Assembly (NCBI GenBank): GCA_004764695.1
Contig: SMSO01000025.1
Location: 2,403,102-2,467,101, forward strand
Source of the DNA: Schizochytrium sp. TIO01
Taxonomy: Eukaryota > Sar > Bigyra > Thraustochytrida > Thraustochytriidae
Reading direction: 5' to 3'
DNA length: 64,000 bases
A model generated the notes under the pieces. It was not told where the DNA came from, searched no databases, and saw only the letters and a program-made list of their open reading frames with translations. How positions within the stretch are numbered: position 1 is the first letter of the stretch; the number at the start of each line of letters is the position of its first letter. A program made the position numbers and the translations under genes. Shown one piece after another: positions 4,823-32,264 of the stretch.

Positions 4823-7800
4823 TTACTGAACTATGCAAGCACTGGATACAATTTTTGGTTTTTGGTGTTGTTTTTGTGATGCTGCTGCTTCAGTAACGCT
4901 TGAATAGACAGTCGAGTTGTTACGGTCCACTGTAGCTCTCGCAAACTCAATTGCTTTCAACTTAAGACTAATTTCACCCAAATAGTAGAAGCTGCGAATG
5001 ATGAAATGTCCTGAGCGTCTATTTCTGATAGAAAGAAGGTATAAAGGTGTTTTCGAATGATCTTTCAATTCTCCTGGAATGGTATAGCGTTCTTTCACAA
5101 ATTGAGGCGTTACCAAATGCATATCGCAATTTGTATATTGTTCTTTGACTTCAGGCATAAAATGATGGGGAATGCAATCAACAGGTTTAATAAAAAAACT
5201 TGTTGGTGTCAAAGAGACTTTCAGGCATCGAAATTGAAAGTCAGAATATCGATCCTGAGCGCTATGAATGAATAGGTAGCCTTTGAACCCACTGGACAGC
5301 TCCTGGCAACTACATGTTTCGATATTGTCATTGTAATAGCAACATGTTTTAGTCGTGACGCATCTTGCTTGTAAAAGAGGTTCTAGAGCCAGAAAGGAAC
5401 GCAAAACTCCAACAAAAGAACTAAAGCTAAGCAATAGCATTTGAGATTTCCTTTGTGCTTTTGCAATTGAAAACTGTGCGTTTGCAGATACAAGCTCAGC
5501 TCGTGCTTGCTGGGACTGCTGCCATGATTTTACCATAGAAAAGCTCCGCTTGCCTATCTGGACCCCCGTATGAGGATCTTCTTTTAAGTATTCTGGAAGC
5601 GACTGGTTGAGAATTGTGGCTCCTTGAAGTCGTTTTTCTGTTCCCGCTTTCTCGTAATGGGAAGCTACGAATAAATAGAGCATAGATTCGGGTAAGTCTT
5701 TTAAAGACTCATCCTTGATATGTTGATTATACGCATTTCCGAGTTGCTCATGAACCTGCTTACGGAAGGCTGGCGTGAGGCTATCGTATATTGGTCGGAT
5801 GCGACTCTCAATTTGATTGACCATATAAAGGCGTGAACTCAAACTACGGACAAGCTGCATTCTACTACATAGAACGTGGAGTGCCTCCTTGAGGTGAAGA
5901 TGTACTCCCGTGCCACTGAAAATGGTCTCTATGATTAAAATATCGATACGTGCGCTAACTGTCGACATTACTGCAATGCTCTTAAGAACTGCTTGAATTG
6001 CTTCTGAATGCTCGAACCGAAGAGCTAGTTTTGATACATTAAGAACAGCACCACTCTCCATTCGTTGCCATCGTACAGGTCCATCTGGTGGAATAGGTAA
6101 ATCACCTGCTCTAACGCATTTGATCTCCTCAAGAAACGCTAATTCTATAAAGACCTCCTTTTCATGCGGGCTTGGCTCAAAACTGTTCGAAGCCAAGGGT
6201 AAGAAGACTTGAATATTGTCCTCAAAACCCTGCATGAAAACAGAGCCTACAGCAAATATTTGTTTCAAATATCTAGGCAATCCCAGAAAGGTAGTCTGGT
6301 CAATTAAGGCTATCGCATGATTCCAGCTAATAAATCGAAATGGGGACGCAGCTCTACTTGCAAACTTCATAGATAGATCTGACGCTTTCCCAGTCAAACA
6401 ATAGTTGTGACGCGATGACTCGCCAAGCAACCCAGCCCTACAAAACCCTGACGCTACGCCCACAGCAATATTATGCTTACTAGAGTTCATGAAGTGCAGG
6501 ACCTTTATAACAGTAGATATACTCATGATTTCAGGTTTAGTGCACCAATCTCCATGAATTATTTGCATAACCAACCCACGATTGTCAACATAGGCGCTCG
6601 CTATTTCTCCTACGTGGTCTTCCACAATTTCAAGTATCGCCATGAAAATGTCTTGCATCTGATAGAGAACTAAATGATTTGGTGTTGAGGATGTCTCGAT
6701 CGGAACAATAAAGGTAGCTATTGAGAAAAACGCTCCATCGATTTGAGGTAAGAACTGGCCAAGTGCAGAGTTGATAAATACACTTTTTGGTATAAACGAG
6801 GTTATAGCCAGAAGTTGTAACAATTCTTCTTCGAACAATTCCGAATGTTCCGAAACTATTGACCTCGTACTGTTTTCTTGAAAAATCTTCTTTGAAGAAT
6901 CTCTATCATAGAATGACACACTGTCCTCAGAGTTCATTCGATTGATTGCTGATTGAGATAAGGAATATCCTTCAACTTTGGCAAAGTTTAAAAACGAAGG
7001 CGTGTGTGCTTGCTGACTCGATTTAGGTGATTTGTAGTAAGGGTTGTCCTGTTGGCTAAGATTAACGTAATCTTTCGATGTTCGCAGCCGCTCATACAGA
7101 TCGTGGGTTTCTGGTTCTGTATTGTCTATTCGCAACCTCACAAAGGTTCCAGATAGAACAATTCGTTTAGATATTTCCTCAATGCTTTTGTGAACTAAAA
7201 TCTCAAAGTCTAGGGCTCGCTCGCTTAAACTTTCAGCTACGGTCTGTGTCTCACCCAAAAGAATAACTTCCTTCCGCGTTTTAGAACCTAGAATGAAGAG
7301 AGAAAAGTCCCCAAAAGCAACCCCAACTTTCAGGCTCATATGATCCTTTGCAAATACGTTTTCTTGCACTTCAAGCGAATCAAACATTTCCATCAATTCT
7401 AGGGCAAACAAAAGAGCTCGATTTTGGCACGTTTTACTTGGTGGTTCGTTTTCTTTCTTTGAACGACGATTGAAGAGTATGTCCATCGGGAAGAGTATTT
7501 GCACCTTGTCGCTCAAATATTTAATAATATCCCCTTGAAAATACAGAGCTTGCTTGGTCACTGCTTTATGGATTTGGGAAAGGACTTCTCCACTTGAGTT
7601 TTGTACAGCATCATGCTGCGGTTGAGTCACAATTAAGTTATCAAAAGGTTTCAATCTGCGATTGTTGAGCTGTCCATCATTGAAAGCAAACGTTGGAATT
7701 TCTATTGAGGGGCTATTTCGTCGATCAAGCTGTTGAGTGAATTGAGTTAGCCCCGGGAAATAGATGCTTACAACAGCGCCTTGGCCTGAATATATTGCTG

Positions 7801-8236
7801 GTGGAGTAATACTTTTGTATCCTTTATTACGAACTAGCCAATAAACCATGCCGCTGCTTAGGCCAAACAAATCAGACGTTACGGTGGCGTTTTGGTTCAT
7901 TTCATATTCTAAGGTTAGCGCTCTCTCCCGAATTGCTTGAAGGCTTTTTTTAACACGATTTTCAATGTACCGTCGTAGACGCTTCAACAAAGTTTTTCGA
8001 AAGAAAGTTTGAATTAAGGTCGCTGCTTCTTCCCGGTATTTATCTTCCATCGAACACGTGACTGCAAGCGAGTCCTCATCTGAAAGGGCATTGTAAGAAA
8101 CAAAGTCTAACGGGATATTACTTACAGAGCTCTTTCGCTCTAGATATGTTAGTCGTGGAGTGGAAACTTTGCCAAGTAGAAGCTCGCTATCCAGTCGTGA
8201 TAGCTCGCGAGCACCTATTTGCCTCTCATGGGGCAT
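4823..8236 (-). CDS. sAC-like tandem class III cyclase paralog 1, predicted pseudo-cyclase with CaaX box
   Basis: 1137 aa from an ATG. Order: Ser-rich N-terminus; IQ-like helix (about 70-90, ATLIQTFFRKTLLKRLRRY); C1 cyclase-like domain (about 150-390); linker; C2 cyclase-like domain (about 470-690); winged-helix/TPR-like tail; C-x5-C-x9-C-x-C element; unfamiliar C-terminal domain; last four residues CIVQ. In C1 the first metal aspartate is replaced by Tyr159 (IYFPGLT), while Lys239 and the second Asp243 remain (GDIIKYLSDKV). In C2 the transition-state Asn and Arg are replaced by Asp620 and Lys624 (GKASDLSMK). I therefore predict no cyclase activity and a regulatory or scaffolding role. It is closest to the paralog at 28896, with which it shares the HKSI, IVLS and FVRLR blocks. 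CIVQ predicts farnesylation. Confidence 0.8.
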   Translation of the reverse strand: MPHERQIGARELSRLDSELLLGKVSTPRLTYLERKSSVSNIPLDFVSYNALSDEDSLAVTCSMEDKYREEAATLIQTFFRKTLLKRLRRYIENRVKKSLQAIRERALTLEYEMNQNATVTSDLFGLSSGMVYWLVRNKGYKSITPPAIYSGQGAVVSIYFPGLTQFTQQLDRRNSPSIEIPTFAFNDGQLNNRRLKPFDNLIVTQPQHDAVQNSSGEVLSQIHKAVTKQALYFQGDIIKYLSDKVQILFPMDILFNRRSKKENEPPSKTCQNRALLFALELMEMFDSLEVQENVFAKDHMSLKVGVAFGDFSLFILGSKTRKEVILLGETQTVAESLSERALDFEILVHKSIEEISKRIVLSGTFVRLRIDNTEPETHDLYERLRTSKDYVNLSQQDNPYYKSPKSSQQAHTPSFLNFAKVEGYSLSQSAINRMNSEDSVSFYDRDSSKKIFQENSTRSIVSEHSELFEEELLQLLAITSFIPKSVFINSALGQFLPQIDGAFFSIATFIVPIETSSTPNHLVLYQMQDIFMAILEIVEDHVGEIASAYVDNRGLVMQIIHGDWCTKPEIMSISTVIKVLHFMNSSKHNIAVGVASGFCRAGLLGESSRHNYCLTGKASDLSMKFASRAASPFRFISWNHAIALIDQTTFLGLPRYLKQIFAVGSVFMQGFEDNIQVFLPLASNSFEPSPHEKEVFIELAFLEEIKCVRAGDLPIPPDGPVRWQRMESGAVLNVSKLALRFEHSEAIQAVLKSIAVMSTVSARIDILIIETIFSGTGVHLHLKEALHVLCSRMQLVRSLSSRLYMVNQIESRIRPIYDSLTPAFRKQVHEQLGNAYNQHIKDESLKDLPESMLYLFVASHYEKAGTEKRLQGATILNQSLPEYLKEDPHTGVQIGKRSFSMVKSWQQSQQARAELVSANAQFSIAKAQRKSQMLLLSFSSFVGVLRSFLALEPLLQARCVTTKTCCYYNDNIETCSCQELSSGFKGYLFIHSAQDRYSDFQFRCLKVSLTPTSFFIKPVDCIPHHFMPEVKEQYTNCDMHLVTPQFVKERYTIPGELKDHSKTPLYLLSIRNRRSGHFIIRSFYYLGEISLKLKAIEFARATVDRNNSTVYSSVTEAAASQKQHQKPKIVSSACIVQ

Positions 8237-9282
8237 TCTTCTCTTGCTCTACTGTTGCGTCAGCTCGCAAGTGTTGCGCACCAACTTTCTCATTCCTAAA
8301 GCTCGAGGATATGCTGCCAACTCATGCATAGATTTGGATTCTGTTATTAATTGCTGTAAGCATCTACTATTCGAAATCGTGACACTGGAACCTAAAGTTA
8401 CGATCTCTATTTGCTTTTAACACAACCTTGATGTTCATGAGGACGGGATGGAATATTGCTGTTCGAACACCATAATAAGTTCTTACACAACCTCTGGGAA
8501 CCATGTAAGGTTAAGACTTACACACCCAGAGTTCCCTTTTTAAGAACCAGGTTACATATTAAGAACCCACAATACGTGGAACTGTTCTGCGTTGTTTTGC
8601 TCAAGTAGTCACACCACAGTGCACAAATGTGTCCATTGCCATTTTTCCGTTTACTAAGGGCCTGTGGAATTTCTATTTTTAAAATAATTCCAGTTCATTT
8701 GAACTTCACAATTAATAACGTACGAGTCTGTGGAAGAGACGTCTGCGACAACACTTGTTCCCTCTTCTGGAAATCCAAGACATCTCTTTTGTCATTATTG
8801 ATTGTTTGATTACTTGATTATGATGAACGAATGAGTCAAGCTTACTCTCTAGGCTATAATAGTCACATTTAGTAGAGTCGGTTTCTATCTTCGGGGGTGT
8901 CTCGTATCGGTCTCTCTGCAACCGTAATAGAAAGGCTATACCTCATTCTAAAAGAAGAAAGAAAGAAAGAAAGGAAGAAAATAAAAGGAGTCCGTAGAAT
9001 TAAAAAAATTAGTTTTTTGAATTAAACTTTTTTTTAAATTTAAAAAAAAAAATGCCCAGAATAATAGTTCGCATCCAAACAAAGTGCTTCTTCTAAAAGC
9101 TTGTTTTCGAGGTTAACGGATTAAACGAGTTTATGGGAAGAAGATATGTCTTAATAGTGCCACTGAATCACAGGAGGCTCATATTTTGACTGCCAAGAAA
9201 AAAAATGAAAAAATAGAATCCATGAGGGGAGACCGTGTAGTAAGTATCCTGTGATTTCACTGTTTATTTAGTTTCTATTACT
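8237..9282. other. Intergenic, upstream of cyclase paralog 1
   Basis: No gene seen. Contains a GAAA microsatellite at about 8955-8985 and a self-complementary AT block at about 9028-9052 (T8, AAATTT, A11). It should hold the promoter of the minus-strand gene starting at 8236 and the 3'UTR of the gene ending at 9283. Confidence 0.65.
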
Positions 9283-10794
9283 TTAAAACATTTTGCCCGA
9301 CTTTAGCGAGCCACCTCCACCAAACCCACCAGGAAGCATATCTGTATAGTTAACCTCCGATACACGGGCATACCAGCTTGAGTTTGAGAGGAATTGCTTT
9401 GATAAAATAGTCAATGTAACAGATTGAATCACTAGAACTCCACCAGTCACAATGCGATGGCGTAGATAGTGAGCAAAGACAGATGCAATCATGACAAGTA
9501 CTGGAAATGTGAAGAACCAAACGGCTCCACCGACTGCTAAGATTCGCAAAAACCCCTGGAGTTGGAGTTGTCCCTGCACCTCAGGGGCCTTGATGGTATT
9601 CATAATGCTAACAGTAAATGCAATTCCGAGCAGAAAACGCTGCATGAGGAGAAATTTTCCAGACCATCCATCATGGTCATGAAATTTAAGGAAGTCATCG
9701 TCTTTAACCTTGTTGATTATTTGTAAAATCGTTGAGATGAATACAATCACAATCAAGATGAACAGTGTCGGAGTTTCGTCATCTAATTTGGGATTGTTGA
9801 ATAATTGCTTGAGAAGTCCATTTTTTGTACCTTGTTGGCGACGAGAAAAGTCAACTAGAGTCCAACCGTTGCCTAGGCACAACAACGTGAACGACATGAT
9901 GAGTTGAGAGAATCCTTCAAAAGACTCTGAAAACAAGTCGAACATAAAGACCCCTGAGCCGTTATAAGAGTAGGCTGCGAGGTGAAAAATTTCAAGAACC
10001 ATTGAAATGATCTGGAAGAGGTAGGCAAATGCAAACCCTTTGATGACTGCATGCGATCGACCTACCACAAGCCCATGTCCTGTTTTCTTTTCATAGTTCT
10101 TAGAAAGCCAGATATAATAACTAATCATACCTGCTGTCATAACCCAGTACAAGCTTGGGAGCCCGCGTTCGTCAGCGGGCAGATGGTCTCCGTCAGGGTT
10201 GAACAATTCAAAGGTGTACGTGAAAAGATTTCGAGCAAGACGGCGGCGCTTACGACGTTTGCTGTTTGGAATGGCTTCTGGGTCTTCATCGCCAACCTGT
10301 TCATCGCCATTTTCAAATCCACGGCAGTCTGCAATGACAAAGTACCATCCATAAGTACGAACCTCATGTTTGATGGTCCAGGTAAAATCCCAGGCATACT
10401 TGTTGTGTTTCTCGTTGATAAGAACGGGTTCGTTCGCTTGAACGACACCGATTCCATGACCAGCCTTCCCTACACGTCCAATTGGGATGCGAGTGTGCGC
10501 ATGTTTCACCTTCTCACAGTCGGGCTCGTTGTGGAATTTGTCATGCCAGTTCGTGTCCATGAACATATAGATTGATCCACGGGGCTCGTTAGCAAAGGTA
10601 ACATTTCCGTGTACCTTGCTTGTGCCAGGCCGAAAACTAAATTTCGTCACCTCATGGATCTTATGAGTCCCGAAATAGCCTCGCCCTTCGACATGTTTTC
10701 CCTGGGCTGGGCAGATAAGTGCCACAAGGGCTAAAAGAACGAGAATTAGGGCTGCCTTTGGCGCATTCTTCACACTAGCAAAGCTCCCCGACAT
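9283..10794 (-). CDS. GPR180/TMEM145-like seven-transmembrane protein
   Basis: 503 aa from an ATG. Residues about 1-33 form a cleavable signal peptide ending in a CPAQGK-type site. A luminal domain (about 34-215) has the family layout: a GYFGTHKIHEVTKFSF start, an acidic Cys-containing core and a WYFVIADC block. A KRRKRRR basic cluster follows. About seven hydrophobic segments lie between 219 and 470, including SLYWVMTAGMISYYIWL. The C-terminus is Gly-rich and short. This matches the Rhodopsin-like GPCR/intimal thickness related receptor family (GPR180, TMEM145), part of the wider GOST group; the ligand in protists is unknown. Nothing links it directly to the cyclases on either side, apart from both being plausible signalling proteins. 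GPR107-type GOST proteins are the main alternative. Confidence 0.75.
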   Translation of the reverse strand: MSGSFASVKNAPKAALILVLLALVALICPAQGKHVEGRGYFGTHKIHEVTKFSFRPGTSKVHGNVTFANEPRGSIYMFMDTNWHDKFHNEPDCEKVKHAHTRIPIGRVGKAGHGIGVVQANEPVLINEKHNKYAWDFTWTIKHEVRTYGWYFVIADCRGFENGDEQVGDEDPEAIPNSKRRKRRRLARNLFTYTFELFNPDGDHLPADERGLPSLYWVMTAGMISYYIWLSKNYEKKTGHGLVVGRSHAVIKGFAFAYLFQIISMVLEIFHLAAYSYNGSGVFMFDLFSESFEGFSQLIMSFTLLCLGNGWTLVDFSRRQQGTKNGLLKQLFNNPKLDDETPTLFILIVIVFISTILQIINKVKDDDFLKFHDHDGWSGKFLLMQRFLLGIAFTVSIMNTIKAPEVQGQLQLQGFLRILAVGGAVWFFTFPVLVMIASVFAHYLRHRIVTGGVLVIQSVTLTILSKQFLSNSSWYARVSEVNYTDMLPGGFGGGGSLKSGKMF

Positions 10795-17177: not shown

Positions 17178-18572
17178 GTTATCATGGTGGTCTATCTCCT
17201 CTCAAAGGCCTTGTGATGTTGGTGATCTCTTTTAGTTGCTAGAGTACCGCTTAATCTTAAAGATCCTGTTCAGCAGATTAATTGCAGCAAGAGAATGGAT
17301 GCATCGACCGCCTGGCGGAATATATGACTAGGCGAGGCTTCAATGTTTGAGATTAAATGTTCGCAAATTTTAAACTGCACACCACTTCTCTTAGAACCCT
17401 ATACCTCTACTTTAAGTGCGGTTTTGTTTAAGAGTCTGTGATCCCATGGAAGAGCGCGCATCTTATTTCATTTAACGTATTTCAAGGTTGAGCTTTAGAA
17501 ATGAATTTCTTGCACGAGACTCTCAGATTAAGGGCACTTGGCATAAAGAGCCGTTATGACCCTTTAAAGAGAGTGTTTTTCTGTTTATTTCTAATTCAGT
17601 TTTTTAATTAAAATTAAAATCAATTCATCTTACTGGCTTTCCATGGAAAGGAAAAAAATATACAAATGGTCATGTTGAGATCAGCAACATTGTAATATGT
17701 CGAAACTATAAAACGGGTTGAGAGCACGACTACCCTGTATACCAAGGTTTGCAAATGATCCGTGCATATGGTGTGAATTGCAAGAAGTAAATGGACAGCC
17801 TGGAACCTCCAGCATCCAAGAAAATCTGTCAAATAGATTTGGCAAATGGTCAGGGGTTTCCAATAAATAAAAAATATTTTCTCATATGTGATGAAGACAC
17901 ATGCTGGTTTTGCAAGTAGTCCAAAGTTTAGGTTTATACATACTTTAGTACACACGCAAGCACAATAGAAACTCAATTATTAAAATATTAATATTAATAT
18001 TTTTATTTATTTATTTATTACTTTTAAAGATATTTAAAATATAACAAAAATCGTTTGTTTTGTTCATTCCTTTTTGTTTTATTTTATTATGGATCATTGC
18101 TATCACTGAATACTCGCCATCTGGGACCATGGCACTTACCTTAGTCAAAACTCCGCAAAAACTGATTAGGAAAGGACTAGGTAGGTACCATGAACATATT
18201 AAAGTTCTTGACTTCATCATCTGACTCAATTATTTTAATTCAACGAAAAAACAATACAAGTGATAAAAGCAATCCTACAACACATACCAAGATATAATAG
18301 CACTAATTGATATTTAAAAAAGGTAATATATGCTGTCTTTGGAATCCTAGTGTCCAACAAAGGGTGTGTATGTGTACTCCAAACTAGAGTCAAGCGGGGA
18401 TAAGCAGAAACTTCGATTTTGATGATTTGCAGAACAGCATTCCATAACAAAAGAAGCAAACGTTTTATCAAGGTTTCTTGACGTGTTTAGAGGGTATTCG
18501 ACGGCAAAAGACGCTACAAGCTTGCCGGGCCGTGCGTGTGTAGGCGAAACTCCGGCAGGCTTGTTTAGGAAC
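17178..18572. other. Intergenic upstream of cyclase paralog 2
   Basis: AT-rich, with an ATT-rich block at about 17980-18035. The reading frame of the next gene stays open upstream to 18483, but only from a GTG, so that extension is not counted as coding. Nothing else seen. Confidence 0.6.
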
Positions 18573-21500
18573 ATGAACAGACTCCATGAATACTCCAGGA
18601 GGTCAACTGAATCAAATCTTATTTCCAGCAGACTGCGTCAACAAAACTTTGGTCTGTCTCAAACAAATGTGAACCGTCGCGTTAGCGAAAGCGATGTTTT
18701 ACAGCTATCACCGATTTTGGCTGCGCATAGAACCAATATTCTACCCGATGACCTACAAGAACCTCGACAAGATGCGCATATTTCATTCGACAATAGCTTT
18801 CAGGAGAAAGTGATTGAGAGAACAGAAGAGGAAGAAAAACAACACACGGCCGCAACTCATATTCAAGTTGAGTATCGAAGATCAAAAAGTCGTCGCAAAA
18901 GTATTGAATGGAAGAAGGGCTTGAAAAATGCTCGTGAGATTCTAGAAGAAAACCTCATGACAGCTGATGGAAGCGTAGCTCAAGAAGCATCTGAAACAGC
19001 TTTCCAACTTCGCACCCACACTCCGCGATTTCTACAATATCTTCTAAGGTCGTTTGGTCCACATATTGCGTTGCCTATGTCTCACACAATCGTTCGAGGT
19101 GCAGTTGCATTTGTTGATATGAAAGGATTCACTAACCTTGCAGAGCACATTTCAAAGTCGCGGAATCGTGGAGCTGAATCTTTAATATTCATTGATGAAT
19201 CTATGCGTGTGGACAACTCATCAGAAATTACAAATGAAATCCTTACCAGGTACTGGAACTTAGTAGTTATGTATGTGAACAAGTTCCACGGGGACGTCAT
19301 TAAGTTTCTTGGAGACGCTGTACAAATTGTTTTTCCAATTCAGCCACTATTTTCTAATATTTCTGACTCTTCAGAGGCCGAACAACGTTGCCAGGACCGA
19401 GCATTAATGTTTGCAATAGAATTGATGAGAGCTTTGGAGTATTTTGAGGTTGATTCACAACACGCCACTACAGGACAGTTGAGCATGAAGATTGGCCTTT
19501 CATTTGGAGATATGACCTTTCGTACCGTTGGCGGTGCACTTTCCCGATGCGAATTTGTTCTCTCTGGAACGACGCCAGCTCGAGCAGCAGTTCTTAGTGG
19601 GAAAGCATCAAAAAATGAAACTGTTGTAAGTAGTGAATTCACTTCTATCAATGAATTTAAACCACCGAATTCCGTGATGGTGTCATATGTTCGTCTGAGA
19701 ATTGGAGAGGGAGAGGAAAACATCGAAGCTTTATCAAAAAGGCTCATGAGTACCGATGACTATTTTAAGCTCAGCCTAAATCTTGATCCATATGCTGGTG
19801 AGCTCGAAGAGTTTGAAGATGATACAGAACCTATTGATACTGCGCAGTTATACAAGCTTGCATCGCATGGTATTTTTCGACGTCCTGGTAGCAGAACTCG
19901 AATAAGATCATCAGCATATAGCTCAGATGGTCTGGGAGGGCAAGATAGCATTTTTTCTTTGCAAGGTGTATCTATCTCTAGCTCTCGCCAAAATGCTAGC
20001 TCAAATTCTTTTGGATCTACTTCTGGCAGTGGTCATATCCGAAATTTGGCTTCTAATGCAGTTCTGATATCAATGCTCGCACGTTTTGTACCTGTCGTGG
20101 CCTTATCACAAATTGTAGTTGGATGTCATAGCAATCAATTGAGTCACCAATTCTGTAGCATTTTGTTTGTCCATGTAAAAAGCTACGATCCAGACGCGCC
20201 AGAAGATGAGCAAACCCGCCTCATGCAAAATGTGACCTTAGCTGTGCAAAATGCAACATATGAAGAGCAGGGGGATTTACGACAAGTAGCTGTAGATGAT
20301 AAAGGGTTTGTACTTATTTCTATATTCGGACTTTCTGCGGAGAGTTCTGAGAGTCATGGATTAGCAGCAGCTTGGAGGATAATGAGCTATTTTGAAGAAG
20401 AAAAAATTAAAGCTGGTCTCGGACTTACATCAGGTTTTTGTCACTTTGGGCCAACTGGCGCAAAGTCAAGATCTGAATATGCTGCAGTTGGAAGTAAGGT
20501 TAACCTAGCAGCACGATTCATGGCGAAAGCCTCAAGTTCAATTCCAATCACAGATACTACACCCTTTTCTGCCCTTCTTCTGGACCAAACAACATTAGCA
20601 GGACTCCCAGAAACATGCAGGACAAGTTTCATTGCTTCCTCTATTCGTGTCAAAGGTTTTTCAGACCCTGTCGATGTGTATTTAACTATGAAAAAACTCG
20701 AAAATCTGGAAAAGGTCATGTCGCCAACAAACCTAACTTATCGAGCATTTCACTTTTGCAAGGAATTGCAGCTTGTCAAAGTTAAAATGATTTCGGAGCA
20801 GTCCAAAAGATTAGTTAGACGTTCCCCAGGTAGCAATTTTGTGGCCGATATCTTTCGCATGACAATTGGCCTGGAACGTCCAGAATCAGTTCGGGATGTA
20901 CTAAAATACATTACTGTTATGGGATTTGTACATTCTAGAATTAATGTGAACATTCTCGAGTCCGTAATTAAAAGTGCTGCGGTACGAGCTGATGTTGAAT
21001 ACGCCCTCAGTGTGATCCACGAAAGATTGCAAATTCTACGCACTGTTCCGGAACTGAACGTGAATATTTACGAGATTCGGGATGTAGAGCATCAGATTAA
21101 GCCCCTATATCAAACTCTGATGAGGTCTTTCAGACATCATATACACAGGGAGTTAGCAGAACGTTATAGAGATGAACTCATGCGAGGACATCTCAAAGAA
21201 ATTCCCCGAGAGGTTATATATTCCACAATAGGCACCCATTTTGCTTTGGCAGGTATCGAGAATCACCTTGAAGCTGCAGAGTTTTTGAATAAGTCTCTTG
21301 CCATGGTCGCACATCGTGACTACGCTCAAGCGGAACTACTTGTGCAACGCAGTCAAAAGCTTATTCAGTCCTGGAGATTTAAGCAACAATGTAAAGCAGA
21401 GAAAGCCGCGGCACAGTCTTTCTTCTTTTTAGCCGGTGTGAAATCAAGACAAAATCAAATGGAAGAGACTTTTCGCAGCTATATCAAATGTCTGGCGTCA

Positions 21501-22088
21501 TATGATACCTTAGCGCCATTATTAAGCCCAAGGTGTATAAGTTCTGATTTATGTGAGCGCACAAGTGCGTTGTCCATTAAGGACTGCTCATGTTGCAAAT
21601 TCCAGGAAAACACTTGCGCTTTTTTGTTTATTCATTTCACCGATGATGAAAATGCAATGTCTTTTCATTTTCGATGCCTCTACATCTCCTCTGGCAATGG
21701 AAAGCAGGTTGATGTTGTTCCATGGGATTGCGTAACTTTAGATCAGAGTGTTGAAAACCCGACTCGGACAACCAACTGTATACTTCGCGAAATTCCGTGG
21801 CATGAGGCCCAAAAGAGGTATCAGCTTAATTGCATCGATTCGAAAGCCAAAATGTTTTATCAAATTCTTATTTTCAACTCGAGCACCTCGAAGCATATAT
21901 TTTCAAGTTTCGTAAATATTGGCCGCATCACATCTCAAGGAAGTCAGAAGTCTGGTTCGGGGAAGCAGTTTAGGGATCCTTCTTTGATCGAGCAATTAAC
22001 AGAGTCTTCTGAAGAAGCCAAGAGTGAAGAACAGAAAAATGAAGTAACGACTGACATACCTAAATCTCGTGCATGTAGCATACAGTAG
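18573..22088 (+). CDS. sAC-like tandem class III adenylyl cyclase paralog 2, predicted active, CaaX box
   Basis: 1171 aa from the first ATG in frame. Order: IQ-like helix (about 92-112); C1 cyclase domain (about 172-400); Ser-rich linker; C2 domain (about 505-710); winged-helix/TPR-like tail (about 790-1010); C-x5-C-x10-C-x-C; C-terminal domain; final CSIQ. C1 keeps both metal aspartates, Asp182 (FVDMKGFT) and Asp248 (FLGDAV), and Lys244, which corresponds to the ATP-specifying Lys95 of human sAC. C2 keeps Asn644 and Arg648 (KVNLAAR). The position of sAC Thr405 is Ala637. This gives one complete active site at the C1-C2 interface, as in ADCY10, and favours ATP over GTP. No Walker A motif lies between C2 and the tail. 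An AATAAA follows the stop by 54 bases (22142-22147). CSIQ predicts farnesylation and membrane attachment. Confidence 0.85.
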   Translation: MNRLHEYSRRSTESNLISSRLRQQNFGLSQTNVNRRVSESDVLQLSPILAAHRTNILPDDLQEPRQDAHISFDNSFQEKVIERTEEEEKQHTAATHIQVEYRRSKSRRKSIEWKKGLKNAREILEENLMTADGSVAQEASETAFQLRTHTPRFLQYLLRSFGPHIALPMSHTIVRGAVAFVDMKGFTNLAEHISKSRNRGAESLIFIDESMRVDNSSEITNEILTRYWNLVVMYVNKFHGDVIKFLGDAVQIVFPIQPLFSNISDSSEAEQRCQDRALMFAIELMRALEYFEVDSQHATTGQLSMKIGLSFGDMTFRTVGGALSRCEFVLSGTTPARAAVLSGKASKNETVVSSEFTSINEFKPPNSVMVSYVRLRIGEGEENIEALSKRLMSTDDYFKLSLNLDPYAGELEEFEDDTEPIDTAQLYKLASHGIFRRPGSRTRIRSSAYSSDGLGGQDSIFSLQGVSISSSRQNASSNSFGSTSGSGHIRNLASNAVLISMLARFVPVVALSQIVVGCHSNQLSHQFCSILFVHVKSYDPDAPEDEQTRLMQNVTLAVQNATYEEQGDLRQVAVDDKGFVLISIFGLSAESSESHGLAAAWRIMSYFEEEKIKAGLGLTSGFCHFGPTGAKSRSEYAAVGSKVNLAARFMAKASSSIPITDTTPFSALLLDQTTLAGLPETCRTSFIASSIRVKGFSDPVDVYLTMKKLENLEKVMSPTNLTYRAFHFCKELQLVKVKMISEQSKRLVRRSPGSNFVADIFRMTIGLERPESVRDVLKYITVMGFVHSRINVNILESVIKSAAVRADVEYALSVIHERLQILRTVPELNVNIYEIRDVEHQIKPLYQTLMRSFRHHIHRELAERYRDELMRGHLKEIPREVIYSTIGTHFALAGIENHLEAAEFLNKSLAMVAHRDYAQAELLVQRSQKLIQSWRFKQQCKAEKAAAQSFFFLAGVKSRQNQMEETFRSYIKCLASYDTLAPLLSPRCISSDLCERTSALSIKDCSCCKFQENTCAFLFIHFTDDENAMSFHFRCLYISSGNGKQVDVVPWDCVTLDQSVENPTRTTNCILREIPWHEAQKRYQLNCIDSKAKMFYQILIFNSSTSKHIFSSFVNIGRITSQGSQKSGSGKQFRDPSLIEQLTESSEEAKSEEQKNEVTTDIPKSRACSIQ

Positions 22089-22900: not shown

Positions 22901-22934
22901 TTGGACGAGTTTGGACGAGTTTGGACGAGTTTGG
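22901..22934. repeat. Three 10-bp direct repeats
   Basis: TTGGACGAGT occurs three times in a row (22901-22930), followed by TTGG. It sits about 800 bases upstream of cyclase paralog 3. Confidence 0.9.
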
Positions 22935-23734: not shown

Positions 23735-26700
23735 ATGTCAGAAGTCTTGCCAAGCGAAGCAAACAAATCAAGAGTCAGTAGTGAAGGTTCCACGCTGAAT
23801 TTATGGCTTGGCGAAGCTACAACTAATTCTATCAAAGAGAGATCTTCAGATAACACCAATGGGCACACAGGATTTATCAGTTTTAAAGTACGGCAGGGTT
23901 CATCTTTTCAGAGCCAACAACACCAGAACGCTGATATCGTGAAAATTGAGCGGCTGAGATCAGCGAAAATTATTCAAAGATGGTACCGCAAGGTTGAGAT
24001 GGATTATTCTCGTTGGCAATATAAATCGAAAATGCAACGTACGAAAGAAGGCCTTGCCTCCAAAATGGAGCAGATTGATGATGGCCATATACAGCAGGCT
24101 GTCGAAATTGAAGGAAAATTGCGTGCGCTTACTCCACAATACTTACACTGGCTTATTCGCTCAAGAGGCGTTCACTTTATTGCTCCGGAAAGGCATATGG
24201 AAATCGAAGGAGTTGTGGCATTCGTAGATATGAAAGGTTTTACCAACCTAGCTCAATATTTGGCAAGAAAGAACGCTGCAAGGAGAAACTCGTCAGCCTT
24301 TCTTGACGAAAACATGAATTTCAATCTTTCATCGGAACTTACAAATGAGGTACTCACGCGGTACTGGGAACTTGTCATTATGTATGCTCAGAAATTTCAG
24401 GGTGATGTTCTCAAATTCCTGGGAGATGCAGTGCAAATCATCTTTCCCTTAGAGCCTTTATTTTCGCATGAGGTAGATGTAGAAACTGCACGACGAAAAT
24501 GTCAGAATCGGGGCCTCATGTTTACGTTGGAGCTATTGCGAGCCTTGGAGTTTTTCGAGATTGAGTCATTCGATCTTGGCACAAACAGAATGAGCCTCAA
24601 AATCGGTCTAGCGTATGGGTTGATGGATATCCGTATCTTAGGGGGGGTCTCCTCAAGATGCGAACTTGTACTTTCAGGTCCAACCTCGGAGGTAGCTGCA
24701 ACATTAAGTGGTAAGGCTGGACACGACGAGGCTGTTGTACATAAGAGCATCTTATTTGTAATTGAAAATCACAAAAGAGTTGATAAAAACAAGGATTATG
24801 TTCGCTTGCGTGGCGGAAAGAAGAACTCAATGGGGGAATTATATCGCCTGCTAACTGAAACAGAGGACTATTTTGAGGCTAGTTTATTTCAAAATCCATT
24901 CGAAGCTAGCTTGGGTGAGACAGGTAACTCTGCAGCAAACCTCTTTGAAAATGTTCGCGCACTGAATCGTTTTCAGACACTTGTTGCAAATCGAGCGAAA
25001 GAAAGACGCAAATCATATAGTTCAGTTGGTTCCTTGAACTCATACTCGCGGCTTTCTTCAACCAGAATGATACGAGATCTTGAGGATTCAATTACAGCCC
25101 CAAGAGGAAGCACTACAAATGAAAGTCTATTGAGTGGAGACTTACCATTTAGCACTCTCGGTCGATTTGTACCACAATGCGCACTCTCTCAAATTGAAGT
25201 GGGTTGTGCAACATCTACATTGGGACAAGGCTTCTGCTCTGTTCTTTTTGTTGAAGTGTGTAACTATGATCCAAACATGGCCCCTGAGGACCAGACTAGA
25301 TTTATGCAAATAGTCACGACGCTTGCTCAAACTGCGATTTACGAGGAACTTGGAGATCTTCGGCAAGTTGCAGTCGACGACAAGGGTCTGGTTGTCATTG
25401 GTATGTTTGGGATTGGTTCGCCTAATGCAGAAGAGGCTGCCTTTGCGGCGGCTAAACAGATTTTACAAAAATACAAAGCGAATGGTATAGCCGCTGGCTT
25501 AGGGCTTGCTTCTGGTGCTTGCCACTTCGGACCAACAGGCGCAGCAGGTCGCAATGAATATGCTGTTGTTGGTAGCACTGTAAATCTTGCTGCTAGATTA
25601 ATGGCCCGAGTTTCTCAAGCAACAATACACGATAGTCATAATTCTTATTTATTAATCGACCAAAACACCTTCCTTGGCCTCTCACGCCATTGCCAAGATG
25701 ACTTTATAACATCAGAAATTAAAGTGAAAGGCTTCGATGCTCCTATTCAGGTGTTTCTTCCACTTAGCAGGAATAACACGCTTAAAGATTTGGAGGAAGC
25801 TCAAGTGCTTAAAGCACTAAGCTTTGAATCTGCGCCCCGCAAAGTAAAAGTTTCACAAGTTACAGACCGTTCAAAAATGAGTTTTCGTGAAAGGCAGCGA
25901 CGCCTTGGCTTTGTTGCTGATATTCAGCGGCTGACACTTGGTCTAGAGAGACCTGAGTCTGTTCAAGAGGTTCTCAAACATATCACCGTCATGGGAGTGG
26001 TAAATCCGCGAGTCGACTCTGCAGTCCTCTATTCAATCATACCAAGCGTGACAGTTTGTGCGGATCTTTCTTACTCACTAGAAATAATTGAAAGTGAGTT
26101 TCAAATAATTCGAGACGTAGGAAATCAAGTATACATGATCAACAATATTGAGCAGCACATCAAACCGCTATATGAAACGCTAATGCAGTCCTTTCGCAAA
26201 AGGCTGCATGAGGAGCTTGCTCAACTGTACGAGGAGCAACTCCTGCATGGGAACATTAAAGATATTGCAAACGACAGTCTGCACGTAATCATTGGTTCTC
26301 ATTACGCGCTTGCTGGAGTTGACCATCACTTAAAAGCTGCAGATTTTCTTAATCAGGGTCTTGCTAAAGTTGCAAGACAAGATCTAGCCTACGCTTCCGT
26401 TTTAGCCCGTCGAAGTCGAAGGCTAGTAACTGCATGGCAACGTAAACAGCATGGTCGAGCAGAAAAGGCTGCAGCTACATCCATGTACTTTATCGGTAGT
26501 TGCGAGCTTAAAATGGGAAGTTTTGAGAAAGGTTTTGGCGCGTATGTCGCAAGTCTTCGATGCTACAGTGGTCTAGAAGGTATATTATGCCCGCCTTGTC
26601 AGTCACAAGATAATTGCTTTTTGCATAATGATTCATATGAATTGTGCTCATGCCTCAAGCTACGTCCTAACTTACACGCGTACCTGATAACTCATCACAC

Positions 26701-27121
26701 CGAAGAAGCTCATAGCTTGTCGCTTTACACTTTTGGAATGGAAATTAAAACCGTGGATGGTTTAACGTGCGAGCTGACTCCTGTGGAATGTGCGATAAAG
26801 GGTAATGTGAATCATAGCCAAGGCTCTACAACGTGCATGTTAGAAAGCCTTTCCAGTGAAGAGATGGACTCAAGGTATCAGCTTGCGGACAGAAAGAAGA
26901 ATATTAGTACTTATTATAGCCTTTATATACCCGAAGCTCAAACTGCCAAATTAATTTTACATACTTTTGCCCAGTTGGCAAAAGTTACTGCAAAGGCAGA
27001 GATGAAAGCTCAAGGCCAATTGCGATCGGTTTCACGAACAAATACACAAGATATATTGGGCAATTCGGACCCAAGCAACAAAAATACGCCACCTCAATCT
27101 AAACTGTGTAGCATTCAATGA
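23735..27121 (+). CDS. sAC-like tandem class III adenylyl cyclase paralog 3, predicted active, CaaX box
   Basis: 1128 aa from an ATG. Order: IQ-like helix (about 75-97, IIQRWYRK); C1 (about 157-360); Ser-rich linker (about 400-465); C2 (about 470-680); winged-helix/TPR-like tail (about 725-950); Cys955-x5-Cys961-x9-Cys971-x-Cys973; C-terminal domain; final CSIQ. All key residues of a single sAC-type site are present: Asp165 and Asp231 for metals, Lys227 for adenine recognition, and Asn617 and Arg621 in C2 (TVNLAAR). The sAC Thr405 position is Ala610. It is the closest relative of paralog 2, sharing VDMKGFTNLA, KFLGDAVQI and DLRQVAVDDKG blocks. There is no P-loop. I infer cAMP synthesis at a membrane, with possible control through calmodulin at the IQ-like helix; bicarbonate control cannot be judged. 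Confidence 0.87.
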   Translation: MSEVLPSEANKSRVSSEGSTLNLWLGEATTNSIKERSSDNTNGHTGFISFKVRQGSSFQSQQHQNADIVKIERLRSAKIIQRWYRKVEMDYSRWQYKSKMQRTKEGLASKMEQIDDGHIQQAVEIEGKLRALTPQYLHWLIRSRGVHFIAPERHMEIEGVVAFVDMKGFTNLAQYLARKNAARRNSSAFLDENMNFNLSSELTNEVLTRYWELVIMYAQKFQGDVLKFLGDAVQIIFPLEPLFSHEVDVETARRKCQNRGLMFTLELLRALEFFEIESFDLGTNRMSLKIGLAYGLMDIRILGGVSSRCELVLSGPTSEVAATLSGKAGHDEAVVHKSILFVIENHKRVDKNKDYVRLRGGKKNSMGELYRLLTETEDYFEASLFQNPFEASLGETGNSAANLFENVRALNRFQTLVANRAKERRKSYSSVGSLNSYSRLSSTRMIRDLEDSITAPRGSTTNESLLSGDLPFSTLGRFVPQCALSQIEVGCATSTLGQGFCSVLFVEVCNYDPNMAPEDQTRFMQIVTTLAQTAIYEELGDLRQVAVDDKGLVVIGMFGIGSPNAEEAAFAAAKQILQKYKANGIAAGLGLASGACHFGPTGAAGRNEYAVVGSTVNLAARLMARVSQATIHDSHNSYLLIDQNTFLGLSRHCQDDFITSEIKVKGFDAPIQVFLPLSRNNTLKDLEEAQVLKALSFESAPRKVKVSQVTDRSKMSFRERQRRLGFVADIQRLTLGLERPESVQEVLKHITVMGVVNPRVDSAVLYSIIPSVTVCADLSYSLEIIESEFQIIRDVGNQVYMINNIEQHIKPLYETLMQSFRKRLHEELAQLYEEQLLHGNIKDIANDSLHVIIGSHYALAGVDHHLKAADFLNQGLAKVARQDLAYASVLARRSRRLVTAWQRKQHGRAEKAAATSMYFIGSCELKMGSFEKGFGAYVASLRCYSGLEGILCPPCQSQDNCFLHNDSYELCSCLKLRPNLHAYLITHHTEEAHSLSLYTFGMEIKTVDGLTCELTPVECAIKGNVNHSQGSTTCMLESLSSEEMDSRYQLADRKKNISTYYSLYIPEAQTAKLILHTFAQLAKVTAKAEMKAQGQLRSVSRTNTQDILGNSDPSNKNTPPQSKLCSIQ

Positions 27122-28895
27122 TATACAATCATCACATGTTGGAGAAAGTCAAATGCATATAATTAGATACTCTGAATTATTTAGATAGAGTGTATAAAGT
27201 GACTTTAAAGACTATATGAAACCGAAGATCCCTTAGCCCATTTAATGTATAGGACCCTGTACTCATAACGCACTTGTGATAAAGATTGTCTTCTTAAACG
27301 TAATTCGATGATGAAATTATCTAACCTGTTTTTTCTTTTTCCTTTTTCTTTTTCACTTTCTCTAAAAAATGCATTCGAAATACGAATCCTGCCATGGTAT
27401 GTTTAAACTTGAGAAATAGTCAAAGAATGTGCTCGATCTTATGAATGGATTAGCGATAGCAATTAATATTTGAAAAAGTATATAGTCTGCTTAAAGTCTT
27501 TCTCAAACATAGGTCCAAGGATTTATTCGTTAAAATTCGTCAAAATGAGCTAAGTCCTTGTTTAAGTTTACTGCCACATCATACAAGATACAAAAAGTAT
27601 GCACATGATCTACATCCATTGCACATGTATATTTAACACTTGCATGGTCACTTGAACATGGAGTTGAGATTGAACCTTAACTTCAAAGTTTCTGGTCAGA
27701 AGTAATATTTGTACACTATGATACATATGTTATATTTTTAAAAAAATATTTTTAAAAAAGAAAAGAAAAAAAAAAGAAAAGAAAAAAGACAAGATAGATG
27801 TCTATCAACCAGGGAGACTCAGTGTTCGTGTCTTTGCGCATAACCTAGAGGTGGATAAACGTGGTAACTATAGTCCTAGAAGGGAACAATAGATACTGCT
27901 TTTACTCGGGCCCTAGTGAATTGCGAATCATCCTTTTCTAAGGTTTACCGCACTACTATTCACCAATACGCTGCACACCAAAACCTTCCACTGCATTGAT
28001 TTATTATATATTAGTATATACTTTCTATAAAGAATGAACACATTTCCACAAAATACCACAACGGTAAACTTAAAAATAAATGAAATCTGCAACGGATCTC
28101 ATCACTGTGTACCTCAGCCTCAAGTTATTTTAAAAGCTAATCTTGTGTGTTTAATCGGTGTTGGAAGAGATCAGCTTCAATTAAAGAGCTCTATTCATGG
28201 TTTTACTTCATGCTTAAAGAAAGTCGTGTTATATGTAGTGTTCGTTCAAATCATTTCTTCCTGTGCCCCATATTAAAGGTAAAGTTTATTAAGTTCCGTT
28301 ATCCTTTGTGATATCTACATATACCGAAAGAGAGCCAGTAATTAATTTTTGTTTAGATCTTCCTGCTTCTGCATTGCGGCTTACCAAAGTTTCACAATTC
28401 ACTTTCAACTTCGTTTGAATATGGGAACAAGAAACAAGTCTTACACCAACTGCTGAAGAGCAAATCTACAGTACATTTTTTATTGCCAACCTCAACTTTT
28501 TCAGAGACTAAATGAATATGTCATATACTTATGTACAAAATACTCAAGGAACACAGTTCATCTCACTTTCTCTCGTGACATCTTAAAGGACTGTAAGACA
28601 GTTAATAACACACTTTACAGTTCTCATTCTAATAGTACTTCGAGTTGTAATGTTTATTAGAGTGGTTGGCAAATGTGTGATTAAATACCAATAATGCAAT
28701 AAACGGTGCCTGCAAAGCACGCATCTGTGCTTTGTGTGCCAGGAGGAAGTGCCCGCCCGATCTCCATGTCTCAGCGATTCACTCTACAGGGCCTCACGTC
28801 TGGGTTGTGTATGGTTCATTGATTCCTCTGTTTGGTCACACAAAAACTTTAATTGCCAGAACCTGGGAAACTCATACCTCTACCACGTTTGCGAG
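27122..28895. other. Intergenic between cyclase paralogs 3 and 4
   Basis: No gene seen. A T/A block at about 27730-27790 (TTTTTAAAAAAATATTTTT, then AAAAGAAAA repeats) is the only notable sequence. The frame of the next gene is open from an ATG-less start at 28734, but those 54 codons do not align with the paralogs. Confidence 0.6.
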
Positions 28896-31800
28896 ATGGA
28901 AAGCGAGAGCAACAGCGACTTTTCACACAGCAATAGTGGTGTATGGCTTGGGAAAGCTATAAAGGCCACCACTGAGCAAGGTGCAGGTCGTTCCTCAGTT
29001 CATAATCGCGTGATTTCATTTGAAACTTTGAAATTTAGTCGTCACTCTGATTTATTTGATATTAAGGCTGAGAATGAAGAAGAAAGAAAACTCCACATTG
29101 CAGCTACTCAAATTCAAAGATTCTTCAGAAAATTATCGGTGTCACGAACTCAAGTCCAATTTCGCCAAAGGCTGCGCCAGTGCTTCCTCCAGCTCGAAGA
29201 GACTTCTGAAAACAAAAACTCAGAGGCAGCCCAGCGCCAGGCCCATGAAATCAAGTCAAAAGTACATGCCCTTACGCCTGGGTTAATACACTGGTTTCTT
29301 CGCACGAAAGGTGTCTCAGCAGCAAATCCTGGATCCACACACATCCTCCATGGAGTTGTCGTTTATATATTCGTGAGCGGATTGACTGAGTTTGCTCGTC
29401 AAGTAAATCAAGTGAAGAAGGTTGGCGATGTAAGCGCTGTTTGGAATGGCCAATTACAGCCAATCGAAGATCAAACTGGGACAGAAAGTATGGGTGCCAT
29501 CGAGTGTCAGTCAAATCTTAATAGTGACGTTTTAATGCGTTGCTGGGATATGATAATAGGCAAAATTCACCATTTTCAGGGTGATGTGGTTAAAATTTTA
29601 GACGATGTTGTCCAGGTGACCTTCCCAGTGGATATCCTATTTAGCTCTGTTAAAAAGCACGCCACTGCTAGATCAATGTGCCAAAGTCGTGCTCTCTTGT
29701 TTTCTCTAGACTTGATCGAAAGACTTAGAACATTTGAAATCGACAAGAACGTGCTTGCAAAAGATCATGTGCGATTGAGGATAGGACTTGCTTATGGGGA
29801 GATGAAGTTTCACATAGTTCGGTCTCTTATGCGCTCAGAGCTGCTGGTAAGCGGCGAAGCAGCAGACGAAGCAGCCACATTGTGCGATAAAGCAGTTGAT
29901 ACAGAAGTACTTGCTCACAAAAGTATTGGAGACATCAAAGATCGAATTGTTTTGTCATCCAATTTTGTGCGATTGCGGATGGATGGTTCACAGCCTAGTA
30001 CGCACCTTTTGTATGAGCGCTTGATAGTTAGCAAAGACTACATTAGCTTGAGCCAGACCGATGATCCATATCATCATAATGTTGCACCACGGACAAGAGG
30101 GGGAAGAAAAAGGTCTGTTGATGCACTCCCCTCTCATGAAAGCTTTGCAAAGATCGGTATGACAGCTTCGTTTAAAATTGTTGAAACCCGAAGCTATCAT
30201 ACAGAATCCGGGATCTCCTTCTCACAATCATCCGACTCAATGATGAATGAATCGCACGAATCATCTATTTTAAGAGTCCCTTCACAAAACTCATTTACTG
30301 CAAATGCGGCCATGACAATTGCAACATTTATTCCAAATAGAGTGTTTTCAAGTATTGTTCTAGGTGCATTTGTAGCCCAGCTCGAACGAGCTTTCTGTAC
30401 AGTTGTGACAATTGTAGTACCTGGTGTTGCTCAGTACGGATCTGACTGTGACACCGATTCTATGCAAGAAATTGTTAGTATTGTAGATGCGATTGTAAAA
30501 AATCAGTTGGGTGATTTGCTACAAATATGGACTGATAGTCGAGGATTTGTAATCGTCGCAATTTTTGGAAATCTGAGTGCTCAAGCAGAACATATGGGCA
30601 CCACAGCCGCAAGGGAAATTGCGTTAGAGTTGCACCATATGGGTTTCGAATCTGCTATTGGAGTGGCGTCTGGGTTCTGTAAAGTTGGCCTAATTGGCGC
30701 ACTCACACGATTCACTTACAGCTCCATTGGAGATGTCCCTCGATTATCTGCGCGATTAGCTAGTCGGGCATCATCCACTCAACTTGAGAAGTTTCAGCGA
30801 CCAATTATTTTGGTTGACCAAACAACATTCCTCGGGCTTCCTCCGCATGAGAATCAGAAATTCGTAGTTTTTGAGTTGTATGTGCGTGGCTTTGAAGACA
30901 ACGTACAAACATTTTTACCACTGTATTACAAGGAGACACTGGAAGACTTAGAAAAACACAAAGTTCTTGCAGATCTTGCGATTATTGGCTCACACAAGAT
31001 TGTTAAAGTTACCGATGCGTCTGAAGAGGCTCACAGACGCGCAAAATGGCAACGTCAAGAGGGTGGGTTTGTGGCAGATGTGTCGCGCCTATCTCTTGGT
31101 CTTGAACACTCAGATGCTGTTCAAGCTGTTTTGAAGCTCCTGGCAATCATGGGTACTGTGAGCGCTCGAGTTGACACACAAATCGTACAAGCGATGTTTG
31201 CAGAGTCTACTACTGCTGCTCACCTTGAGTATTCTTTAAATGTACTTCGTTCTAGTTTACAAATTATACGTTTTGTCGGTCAGAATGTTTACATGATTAA
31301 CAATGTTCAAGGCCAAATCAAACCTATATATGCGAGTCTAATGCCTACCTACCGTATGAAATTGCACGGGCTGCTGGCAAATATCTATGCTGAGAAAATG
31401 AGCATAGGAGAGATAACAGACATCCCCCAACACACTCTTCAAATTATGATAGGAACGCACTACTCTCAAGCAGGAGTGGAATGCCATCAAGAAGCAGCTA
31501 CCTATTTGAACCAAGCAATTACTGCAGTTTCGTATGAAACTCCAGCGCAAGGTGTTGCACTGGCAAAACGAAGTTACAACCTAACTCGTTCGTGGCAAAA
31601 CTTTCAGCATTCACGAGCGGAGACAACATCTGCACAAGCCCAATTCCTTATTGCAAAATTTCAAAGGAAGATGGGCAACCTGCAGTCTAGCTTCAATGCG
31701 TTCGTTGCTTGCCTGCGTTCGTTTACTGCACTTGAACCTCTATTGCATCCACCTTGTACGAATCTTGAGACATGTGAGTACCTCAAAGAGAGTTTGGAAT

Positions 31801-32264
31801 CATGCAGCTGCTATTCTTTACCCAAAAATTTGAGGGTTTACCTATTTATTCATCACGCGCCAGATCCCTTTTCAGAATTTCAATTTCGCTGTTTAGAGAT
31901 CTCTACTGCATCGGATGTGTTTCTTGTCAATCCTGTAGAGTGCATTATAAACGGAAGCTTCGAGAAACGTCCCAGCCCTACAGCAAACTGCAAACTTGTC
32001 GAGCTGTCTAATTCTGAGCTTGAACGCCATTATTCAGTGTTCAATAGAAATCCAAATGTACGAAAATACTATCAAGTGTTAATTATGAACCGCCACACAA
32101 GTAAATATATCCTGAAGAGTTTTTTGCAGCTCGCAGCTATTTCAATCAAAGCAAAAGCAGCTGAATATATTCGAACTTCTTTTGCCCCCGCAACGTCTAG
32201 CTCATCCATTTTCTCGCCAAAAGAACCCGTGAAAATCAAGTCAAACATGTGTCTATTGCAGTAA
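28896..32264 (+). CDS. sAC-like tandem class III cyclase paralog 4, predicted pseudo-cyclase with CaaX box
   Basis: 1122 aa. I chose the ATG at 28896 because the protein then begins much like paralog 3, with a VWLGKA block matching LWLGEA; the frame is open back to 28734. Order: IQ-like helix (about 68-92, ATQIQRFFRK); C1-like domain (about 150-370); linker; C2-like domain (about 470-680); winged-helix/TPR-like tail; C-x5-C-x9-C-x-C; C-terminal domain; final CLLQ. The first C1 metal Asp is Phe159 (YIFVSGLT); Lys233 and the second Asp237 remain, but the preceding Gly is Asp236. In C2 the transition-state Asn is Arg616 while Arg620 is kept. Loss of one metal ligand and the Asn predicts little or no activity. 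Its sister is paralog 1. CLLQ predicts prenylation. Confidence 0.82.
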   Translation: MESESNSDFSHSNSGVWLGKAIKATTEQGAGRSSVHNRVISFETLKFSRHSDLFDIKAENEEERKLHIAATQIQRFFRKLSVSRTQVQFRQRLRQCFLQLEETSENKNSEAAQRQAHEIKSKVHALTPGLIHWFLRTKGVSAANPGSTHILHGVVVYIFVSGLTEFARQVNQVKKVGDVSAVWNGQLQPIEDQTGTESMGAIECQSNLNSDVLMRCWDMIIGKIHHFQGDVVKILDDVVQVTFPVDILFSSVKKHATARSMCQSRALLFSLDLIERLRTFEIDKNVLAKDHVRLRIGLAYGEMKFHIVRSLMRSELLVSGEAADEAATLCDKAVDTEVLAHKSIGDIKDRIVLSSNFVRLRMDGSQPSTHLLYERLIVSKDYISLSQTDDPYHHNVAPRTRGGRKRSVDALPSHESFAKIGMTASFKIVETRSYHTESGISFSQSSDSMMNESHESSILRVPSQNSFTANAAMTIATFIPNRVFSSIVLGAFVAQLERAFCTVVTIVVPGVAQYGSDCDTDSMQEIVSIVDAIVKNQLGDLLQIWTDSRGFVIVAIFGNLSAQAEHMGTTAAREIALELHHMGFESAIGVASGFCKVGLIGALTRFTYSSIGDVPRLSARLASRASSTQLEKFQRPIILVDQTTFLGLPPHENQKFVVFELYVRGFEDNVQTFLPLYYKETLEDLEKHKVLADLAIIGSHKIVKVTDASEEAHRRAKWQRQEGGFVADVSRLSLGLEHSDAVQAVLKLLAIMGTVSARVDTQIVQAMFAESTTAAHLEYSLNVLRSSLQIIRFVGQNVYMINNVQGQIKPIYASLMPTYRMKLHGLLANIYAEKMSIGEITDIPQHTLQIMIGTHYSQAGVECHQEAATYLNQAITAVSYETPAQGVALAKRSYNLTRSWQNFQHSRAETTSAQAQFLIAKFQRKMGNLQSSFNAFVACLRSFTALEPLLHPPCTNLETCEYLKESLESCSCYSLPKNLRVYLFIHHAPDPFSEFQFRCLEISTASDVFLVNPVECIINGSFEKRPSPTANCKLVELSNSELERHYSVFNRNPNVRKYYQVLIMNRHTSKYILKSFLQLAAISIKAKAAEYIRTSFAPATSSSSIFSPKEPVKIKSNMCLLQ

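Follow-up and report, generated by a model that had tools for sequence, protein, structure and literature searches.

A family of soluble adenylyl cyclase-like proteins with farnesylation-type C-termini and no NTPase domain in Schizochytrium sp. TIO01, with predicted active and pseudocyclase members

The stretch of Schizochytrium sp. TIO01 DNA analyzed here (the window: 64,000 nucleotides of contig SMSO01000025.1, here C24, in assembly GCA_004764695.1) carries four genes, m1 to m4, encoding proteins that combine the tandem catalytic domains (C1 and C2) of soluble adenylyl cyclase (sAC) with a C-terminal CaaX-type box. Their pairwise identities of 25-41% mark them as paralogs. An earlier reading of the same DNA, hereafter the original prediction, had described a four-member family of such proteins; the four open reading frames (ORFs), with products of 1122-1171 residues, are as described (Table 1), but the count falls short, as the genome (64 Mb assembled in 37 contigs) encodes at least six members. 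A genome search with m3 recovered a fifth intact member, m5 (locus L032), which shares the contig of m1 at a distance of about 107 kb, ends in CILQ and is 33% identical to m3. A sixth, L033 on contig C30, is split by frameshifts over three overlapping frames, the last of which ends in CAIQ, and is either a pseudogene or an assembly error. When the C-terminal domain of m4 was used as the query against the genome, these same six made up the six matches among the best candidates scored. Outside this genome, none of 68 pattern matches in viral contigs or of 42 in genome contigs was confirmed as a relative with the four-member profile. In all six pairs among m1 to m4 the second codon position has changed least and the third most, which implies selection on these protein sequences, also on those that look dead, at least over much of their history.

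The members share a single layout, as originally proposed: an IQ-like helix, C1, a Ser-rich linker, C2, a helical tail, a Cys motif, a further C-terminal domain and a terminal C-x-x-Q. In all five intact members an IQ-x3-R sequence starts between residues 73 and 97, which suggests a helix for calmodulin-type binding, and the linker has a Ser content of 17-21%, as against 8-11% for the whole protein. The C-x5-C-x9/10-C-x-C motif is likewise present in the five intact members and, on reading, in the broken sixth. The domain that follows it, which the original prediction found unfamiliar, has no Pfam match and, up to E 10, no more than three matches in the PDB, the best of which, a ferredoxin at E 0.099, was judged to be due to chance.

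Table 1. Coordinates in the window of the four genes, their terminal boxes and the domains of m3. Each gene is a single open frame; protein lengths are counted from the first ATG, which in m2 and m4 lies inside the listed ORF.
Feature	Position	Strand	Remarks
m1	4823..8236	(-)	1137 residues, end CIVQ; predicted pseudocyclase
m1 CaaX box CIVQ	4826..4837	(-)	
m2	ORF 18483-22088, first ATG at 18573	(+)	1171 residues from ATG, end CSIQ, catalytic residues retained
m2 CaaX box CSIQ	22074..22085	(+)	
m3	23735..27121	(+)	1128 residues, end CSIQ, catalytic residues retained
m3 IQ-like motif, residues 80-91	23972..24007	(+)	IQ-x3-R
m3 C1 domain, about residues 159-345	24209..24769	(+)	profile match
m3 Ser-rich linker, residues 390-477	24902..25165	(+)	composition
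m3 C2 domain, about residues 478-680	25166..25774	(+)	Pfam and profile match
m3 tail, about residues 727-945	25913..26569	(+)	weak winged-helix-like start, then TPR-like part; after C2 with no intervening NTPase
m3 Cys motif C955-x5-C961-x9-C971-x-C973 and C-terminal domain	26597..27004	(+)	domain without recognized relatives
m3 CaaX box CSIQ	27107..27118	(+)	
m4	ORF 28734-32264, first ATG at 28896	(+)	1122 residues from ATG, end CLLQ; predicted pseudocyclase
m4 CaaX box CLLQ	32250..32261	(+)	

Pfam and profile searches bear out the class III cyclase identity of the family. PF00211 was recovered in m1 (E 3e-7), m2 (E 2.8e-9) and m3 (E 5.5e-8), with m4 alone giving no Pfam match at E 10, and a profile of the four members has ADCY10 as its best match of solved structure (E 1.1e-19), extending over both C1 and C2. 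The region from C1 through the linker to C2 (family columns 144-679) also aligns with a profile of 35 bacterial soluble-type cyclases with a probability of 99.9 and an E-value of 2.4e-33, and these two results uphold the soluble-type C1-C2 order. The bacterial set derives from the best 80 of 216 loci, 43 of which gave a frame with DDKG; the 35 retained were longer than 900 residues and had a P-loop pattern, a filter that selects for the nucleoside triphosphatase (NTPase), whose presence in these 35 proteins thus reflects the selection and is no result in itself. The broken L033 was set aside for the bacterial-profile alignment, the tail comparisons, the tree and the motif table.

Full-length sACs are generally described as non-transmembrane proteins with a large NTPase/TPR tail whose role is unclear. 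In the Schizochytrium family the NTPase between C2 and the tail is absent, a point that goes beyond the original prediction. No Walker A pattern occurs in any of the five intact members, and Pfam detects no AAA match in m1 to m4. The D-x-[KR]-G of C2 and the winged-helix-like motif are 198-201 residues apart in the five members; for 34 of the 35 bacterial proteins the median separation is 460, with the P-loop at a median of 173 from the same C2 motif. The bacterial profile furthermore yields a second match, of family columns 815-961 to bacterial columns 860-997 (P 3e-4), in the correct order after C2, and the gap between C2 and this matched tail is 136 columns in the family versus 389 in bacteria, or about 250 fewer. 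The shorter gap, the motif spacing and the missing Walker A pattern show the NTPase to be absent, and this is the clearest departure of the family from full-length sAC. Compared by itself with the bacterial post-C2 region, the tail scores 47.3 (P 8e-5); no score above 30.1 came from 200 column shuffles, and the reversed tail gave 16.4. The strong stretch of this match corresponds to the TPR-like part, which begins after the winged-helix-like motif. We infer that the NTPase was lost, rather than never present.

The catalytic residues divide the family in two. With positions numbered after human sAC and read from printed alignments, and with residue roles as given in PMC12867704 (Table 1 of that paper) and PMC12250328, both m2 and m3 retain the equivalents of Asp47, Lys95, Asp99, Lys144, Asn412 and Arg416. 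In m1, m4 and m5, Asp47 is replaced by Tyr, Phe and Lys and Asn412 by Asp, Arg and Lys, respectively; among these three Arg416 is retained in m4 only, with a Lys in m1. The pieces of L033, read apart, have Thr at Asp47 and Glu at Asp99. The metal-binding Asp residues of C1 and the Asn/Arg pair of C2 that had been ascribed to the family hold in full only for m2 and m3. In the tree, m1, m4 and m5 cluster with a support of 100/100. We predict m2 and m3 to be active enzymes, which agrees with the number of two active members in the original prediction, and m1, m4 and m5 to be pseudocyclases.

The C-terminal end is kept even where the catalytic residues are not: Cys at -4 and Gln at -1 are invariant in all six members, the middle residues vary, and on reading the residues just upstream align poorly, in contrast to the fixed box. 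C-x-x-Q is a textbook farnesylation end. At the Cys (1.5%) and Gln (4.5%) frequencies of the five intact members and eleven other cyclases of the genome, one such end would arise by chance with a probability of about 7e-4, a value not to be multiplied over six ends that belong to paralogs. The genome encodes a farnesyltransferase beta subunit, for which the best PDB matches are farnesyltransferase beta chains (4e-100), while the beta chains of Rab-type and type-1 geranylgeranyltransferases match at 6e-33 at best; two further prenyltransferase-beta-type matches, one ICMT-family match and two PDE6delta/UNC119-family matches are also present. The CaaX end of the original prediction is thereby sustained, and the members are probably farnesylated. 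Transmembrane anchoring was considered, and the highest 19-residue mean hydropathies of m1 to m5 (1.39-2.03) were judged too weak for it.

As for regulation, m2 and m3 retain Lys95 of the bicarbonate-binding pair and, by reading of the alignments, have Ala at the switch position Arg176, which leaves the mammalian pair incomplete. According to PMC12867704, neutral replacements strongly reduce the activity of the human enzyme, many non-mammalian sACs are without Arg176, and the sea-urchin sAC, in which Lys95 is kept and Arg176 lost, responds to pH and not to bicarbonate. By analogy with the sea-urchin enzyme, m2 and m3 should have no bicarbonate response like that of human sAC. An SLC9C1-like exchanger was considered as the partner of a pH-controlled cyclase, and none of the 10 Na/H exchanger matches in the genome shares a frame with a match to the cyclic nucleotide (cNMP)-binding domain; the idea was abandoned. 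In terms of domain matches, not genes, the genome has 113 for cNMP binding and 13 for phosphodiesterases.

Taking these observations together, it appears reasonably probable that the family is an sAC/ADCY10-like class III cyclase lineage which lacks the STAND NTPase, has added a C-terminal Cys domain and a farnesylation box, and has been duplicated into active (m2, m3) and pseudocyclase (m1, m4, m5) members, with the residues of L033 also unmatched. In this scheme, for which we infer prenylation, membrane placement, activity, substrate, calmodulin binding and the partnership of dead and active members, C1 and C2 would fold together, and in m2 and m3 the two metal-binding Asp residues of C1 would form, with the Asn and Arg of C2, one active site that yields a cyclic nucleotide. 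Farnesylation of the C-x-x-Q cysteine would direct the protein to a membrane, calmodulin or a relative may bind to the IQ-like helix, and dead members at the same membrane might regulate or scaffold the active ones. A bolder version, which we put forward only tentatively and consider rather unlikely as a whole, is that of a lipid-anchored branch of the soluble type in which pseudocyclases, duplicated along with the active enzymes and still prenylated, assemble with them at a single membrane, possibly that of the flagellum and by way of a PDE6delta/UNC119-type carrier, regulation having moved from the missing NTPase to the calmodulin-binding helix and the dead partners.

Several observations weigh against the preferred reading. 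At the base-recognition sites Lys334 and Thr405, m2 and m3 have Gln and Ala, which leaves their substrate unclear, while among the bacterial relatives Lys is found at the first site in 31 of 35 and Thr at the second in 28 of the 31 readable there. With Gln/Ala in place of Lys/Thr, ATP is not assured as the substrate, and the pair could be taken as a sign of lost or changed substrate binding, such that the whole family would be non-catalytic or m2 and m3 would make cyclic GMP (cGMP) instead of cyclic AMP (cAMP). We hold this to be unlikely, though of appreciable weight: the metal and transition-state residues are retained in m2 and m3, and the Gln/Ala pair also occurs in the otherwise normal-looking bacterial proteins L047 and L081 and in L039 and L042 of the same genome, and is thus a recurrent state. 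For m2 and m3 cAMP is the more likely product than cGMP; of the membrane-tethered cAMP system originally suggested, the cAMP product is nonetheless a guess in view of these base-specifying residues. The bicarbonate argument is weaker for m2, which carries an Arg two positions ahead of the Arg176 site. With regard to the tail, its homology to the bacterial region is modest (hhalign probability of 61% alone and 39% as the second match), and its score of 47.3 is far below the 254.5 of a positive control made of three same-genome tails. The winged-helix-like motif aligns only in a comparison with three same-genome tails (probability 4.4%, P 0.009) and in a realigned tail comparison, outside the strong stretch. 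The TPR-like part of the "winged-helix/TPR-like tail" of the original prediction stands, the winged-helix part being less firm.

These figures bear on the alternative that the tail was acquired elsewhere and is unrelated to that of soluble cyclases, in which case no NTPase was ever lost. The weak match to the same-genome tails and the modest probability against the bacterial profile speak for such an origin, as does a sub-threshold Pfam match of the m3 tail to TetR_C_37, a helical family that is unrelated (E 0.003, 18.6 bits versus a cut-off of 27); the correct order of the bacterial-profile match after C2 and a tail score above all 200 shuffles render it improbable. At the other end of the protein, none of the five intact members has a polybasic stretch or a second cysteine before the box, and a farnesyl group alone would therefore bind a membrane weakly, stable residence needing another contact, for example through the C-terminal domain or a carrier. 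In view of this lack of a second lipid signal, the C-x-x-Q end might be a conserved terminal motif of another role, such as metal binding with the nearby cysteines or partner docking. That the end is of the farnesylation type, with its Cys and Gln fixed around a varying middle, that the transferase is encoded, and that L042 has CTIQ on a C-terminus otherwise unlike that of the family make this quite improbable in our estimate. The IQ motif, finally, is not called by Pfam.

The family is apparently an sAC-derived variant and should not be classed as an sAC ortholog, since the NTPase, the bicarbonate residues and the base residues of ADCY10 are not reproduced in it. The C1-C2 tandem on one chain is common to the family and to ADCY10-type sAC (the human, sea-urchin and salmon forms; PMC12867704), and m2 and m3 resemble ADCY10 in the metal-binding Asp residues of C1, the Asn/Arg of C2 and Lys95; they differ in the Ala at Arg176 and the Gln/Ala at Lys334/Thr405, and the family as a whole in its missing NTPase and in its added IQ-like N-terminus, Cys motif, extra domain and CaaX-type end. 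The cyclases of bacteria and of the same genome with a C1-C2-NTPase-tail arrangement (L037, L039, L046 and kin) are homologous by profile in C1-C2 and part of the tail, and differ in having the NTPase between C2 and tail. The transmembrane cyclases of Trichomonas (PMC2914791) are likewise a duplicated protist family with inactive copies, but are membrane-spanning, and their inactive copies are described as pseudogenes. In open-licence PMC literature (titles and abstract openings, among the matches listed), we found neither a class III cyclase or sAC with a CaaX box nor any paper on labyrinthulomycete cyclases. Dictyostelium sGC and AcrA are protist cyclases said to be related to the soluble type, and we know of no CaaX box in either. 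The original prediction knew of no described sAC with a CaaX box or this C-terminal module; for the CaaX box this agrees with the literature search, in which an absence carries little weight. Within the genome a CaaX end also occurs outside this layout, as another soluble-type gene, L042, ends in CTIQ.

L042 is one of the eleven further related cyclase genes matched by the m3 search, all called soluble-type from their C1/C2 sequence. Nine of these (all but L041 and L044) were scanned with Pfam, and AAA_16 was found within E 0.01 in seven (L034, L036, L037, L038, L039, L040 and L043), in four of them (L036, L039, L040 and L043) above the Pfam cut-off; L035 and L042 gave no AAA_16 match within E 0.01. 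L042 has a P-loop-like stretch by eye, together with a winged-helix-like motif. CaaX-like ends occur in two of the eleven, CTIQ in L042 and CTIV in L039; the frame ends of the others may be exon ends. Both genes (L042:749-5854 and L039:1672-6318, each on the minus strand) encode longer soluble-type cyclases than the family members. A kinship of the family with L039 and L042 was considered; they are not joined in the tree, where long branches make their placing unsure, and no shared CaaX-ended ancestor is claimed. On contig C30, L143:873-8813 (minus strand) has a frame of 2646 residues in which a soluble-type C1 (Pfam) and C2 (match to m3) are combined with a PH domain, a class I cyclic-nucleotide phosphodiesterase and a sub-threshold AAA_16 match, and likely encodes a cyclase-phosphodiesterase fusion.

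Elsewhere in the window, m1 and m2 are not adjacent, and the genes between them include one for a GPR180/TMEM145-type membrane protein (9283-10794, minus strand). A small EF-hand protein of the calmodulin/centrin sort (51014-51562, plus strand), in which the EF-hand pair is matched twice, is of a type that could serve as an IQ partner. A protein of 1351 residues (35281-39336, minus strand) combines EF hands, IQ repeats and WW domains. The genome also contains a PfaA-type polyunsaturated fatty acid synthase region.

A cyclase lineage with catalytic residues and a lipid box but no NTPase would amount to a natural deletion experiment on the sAC tail, whose members may have found an independent way of holding an sAC-like enzyme at a membrane. 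The CaaX-type ends on the dead-looking paralogs, moreover, make regulation by pseudocyclases directly testable.

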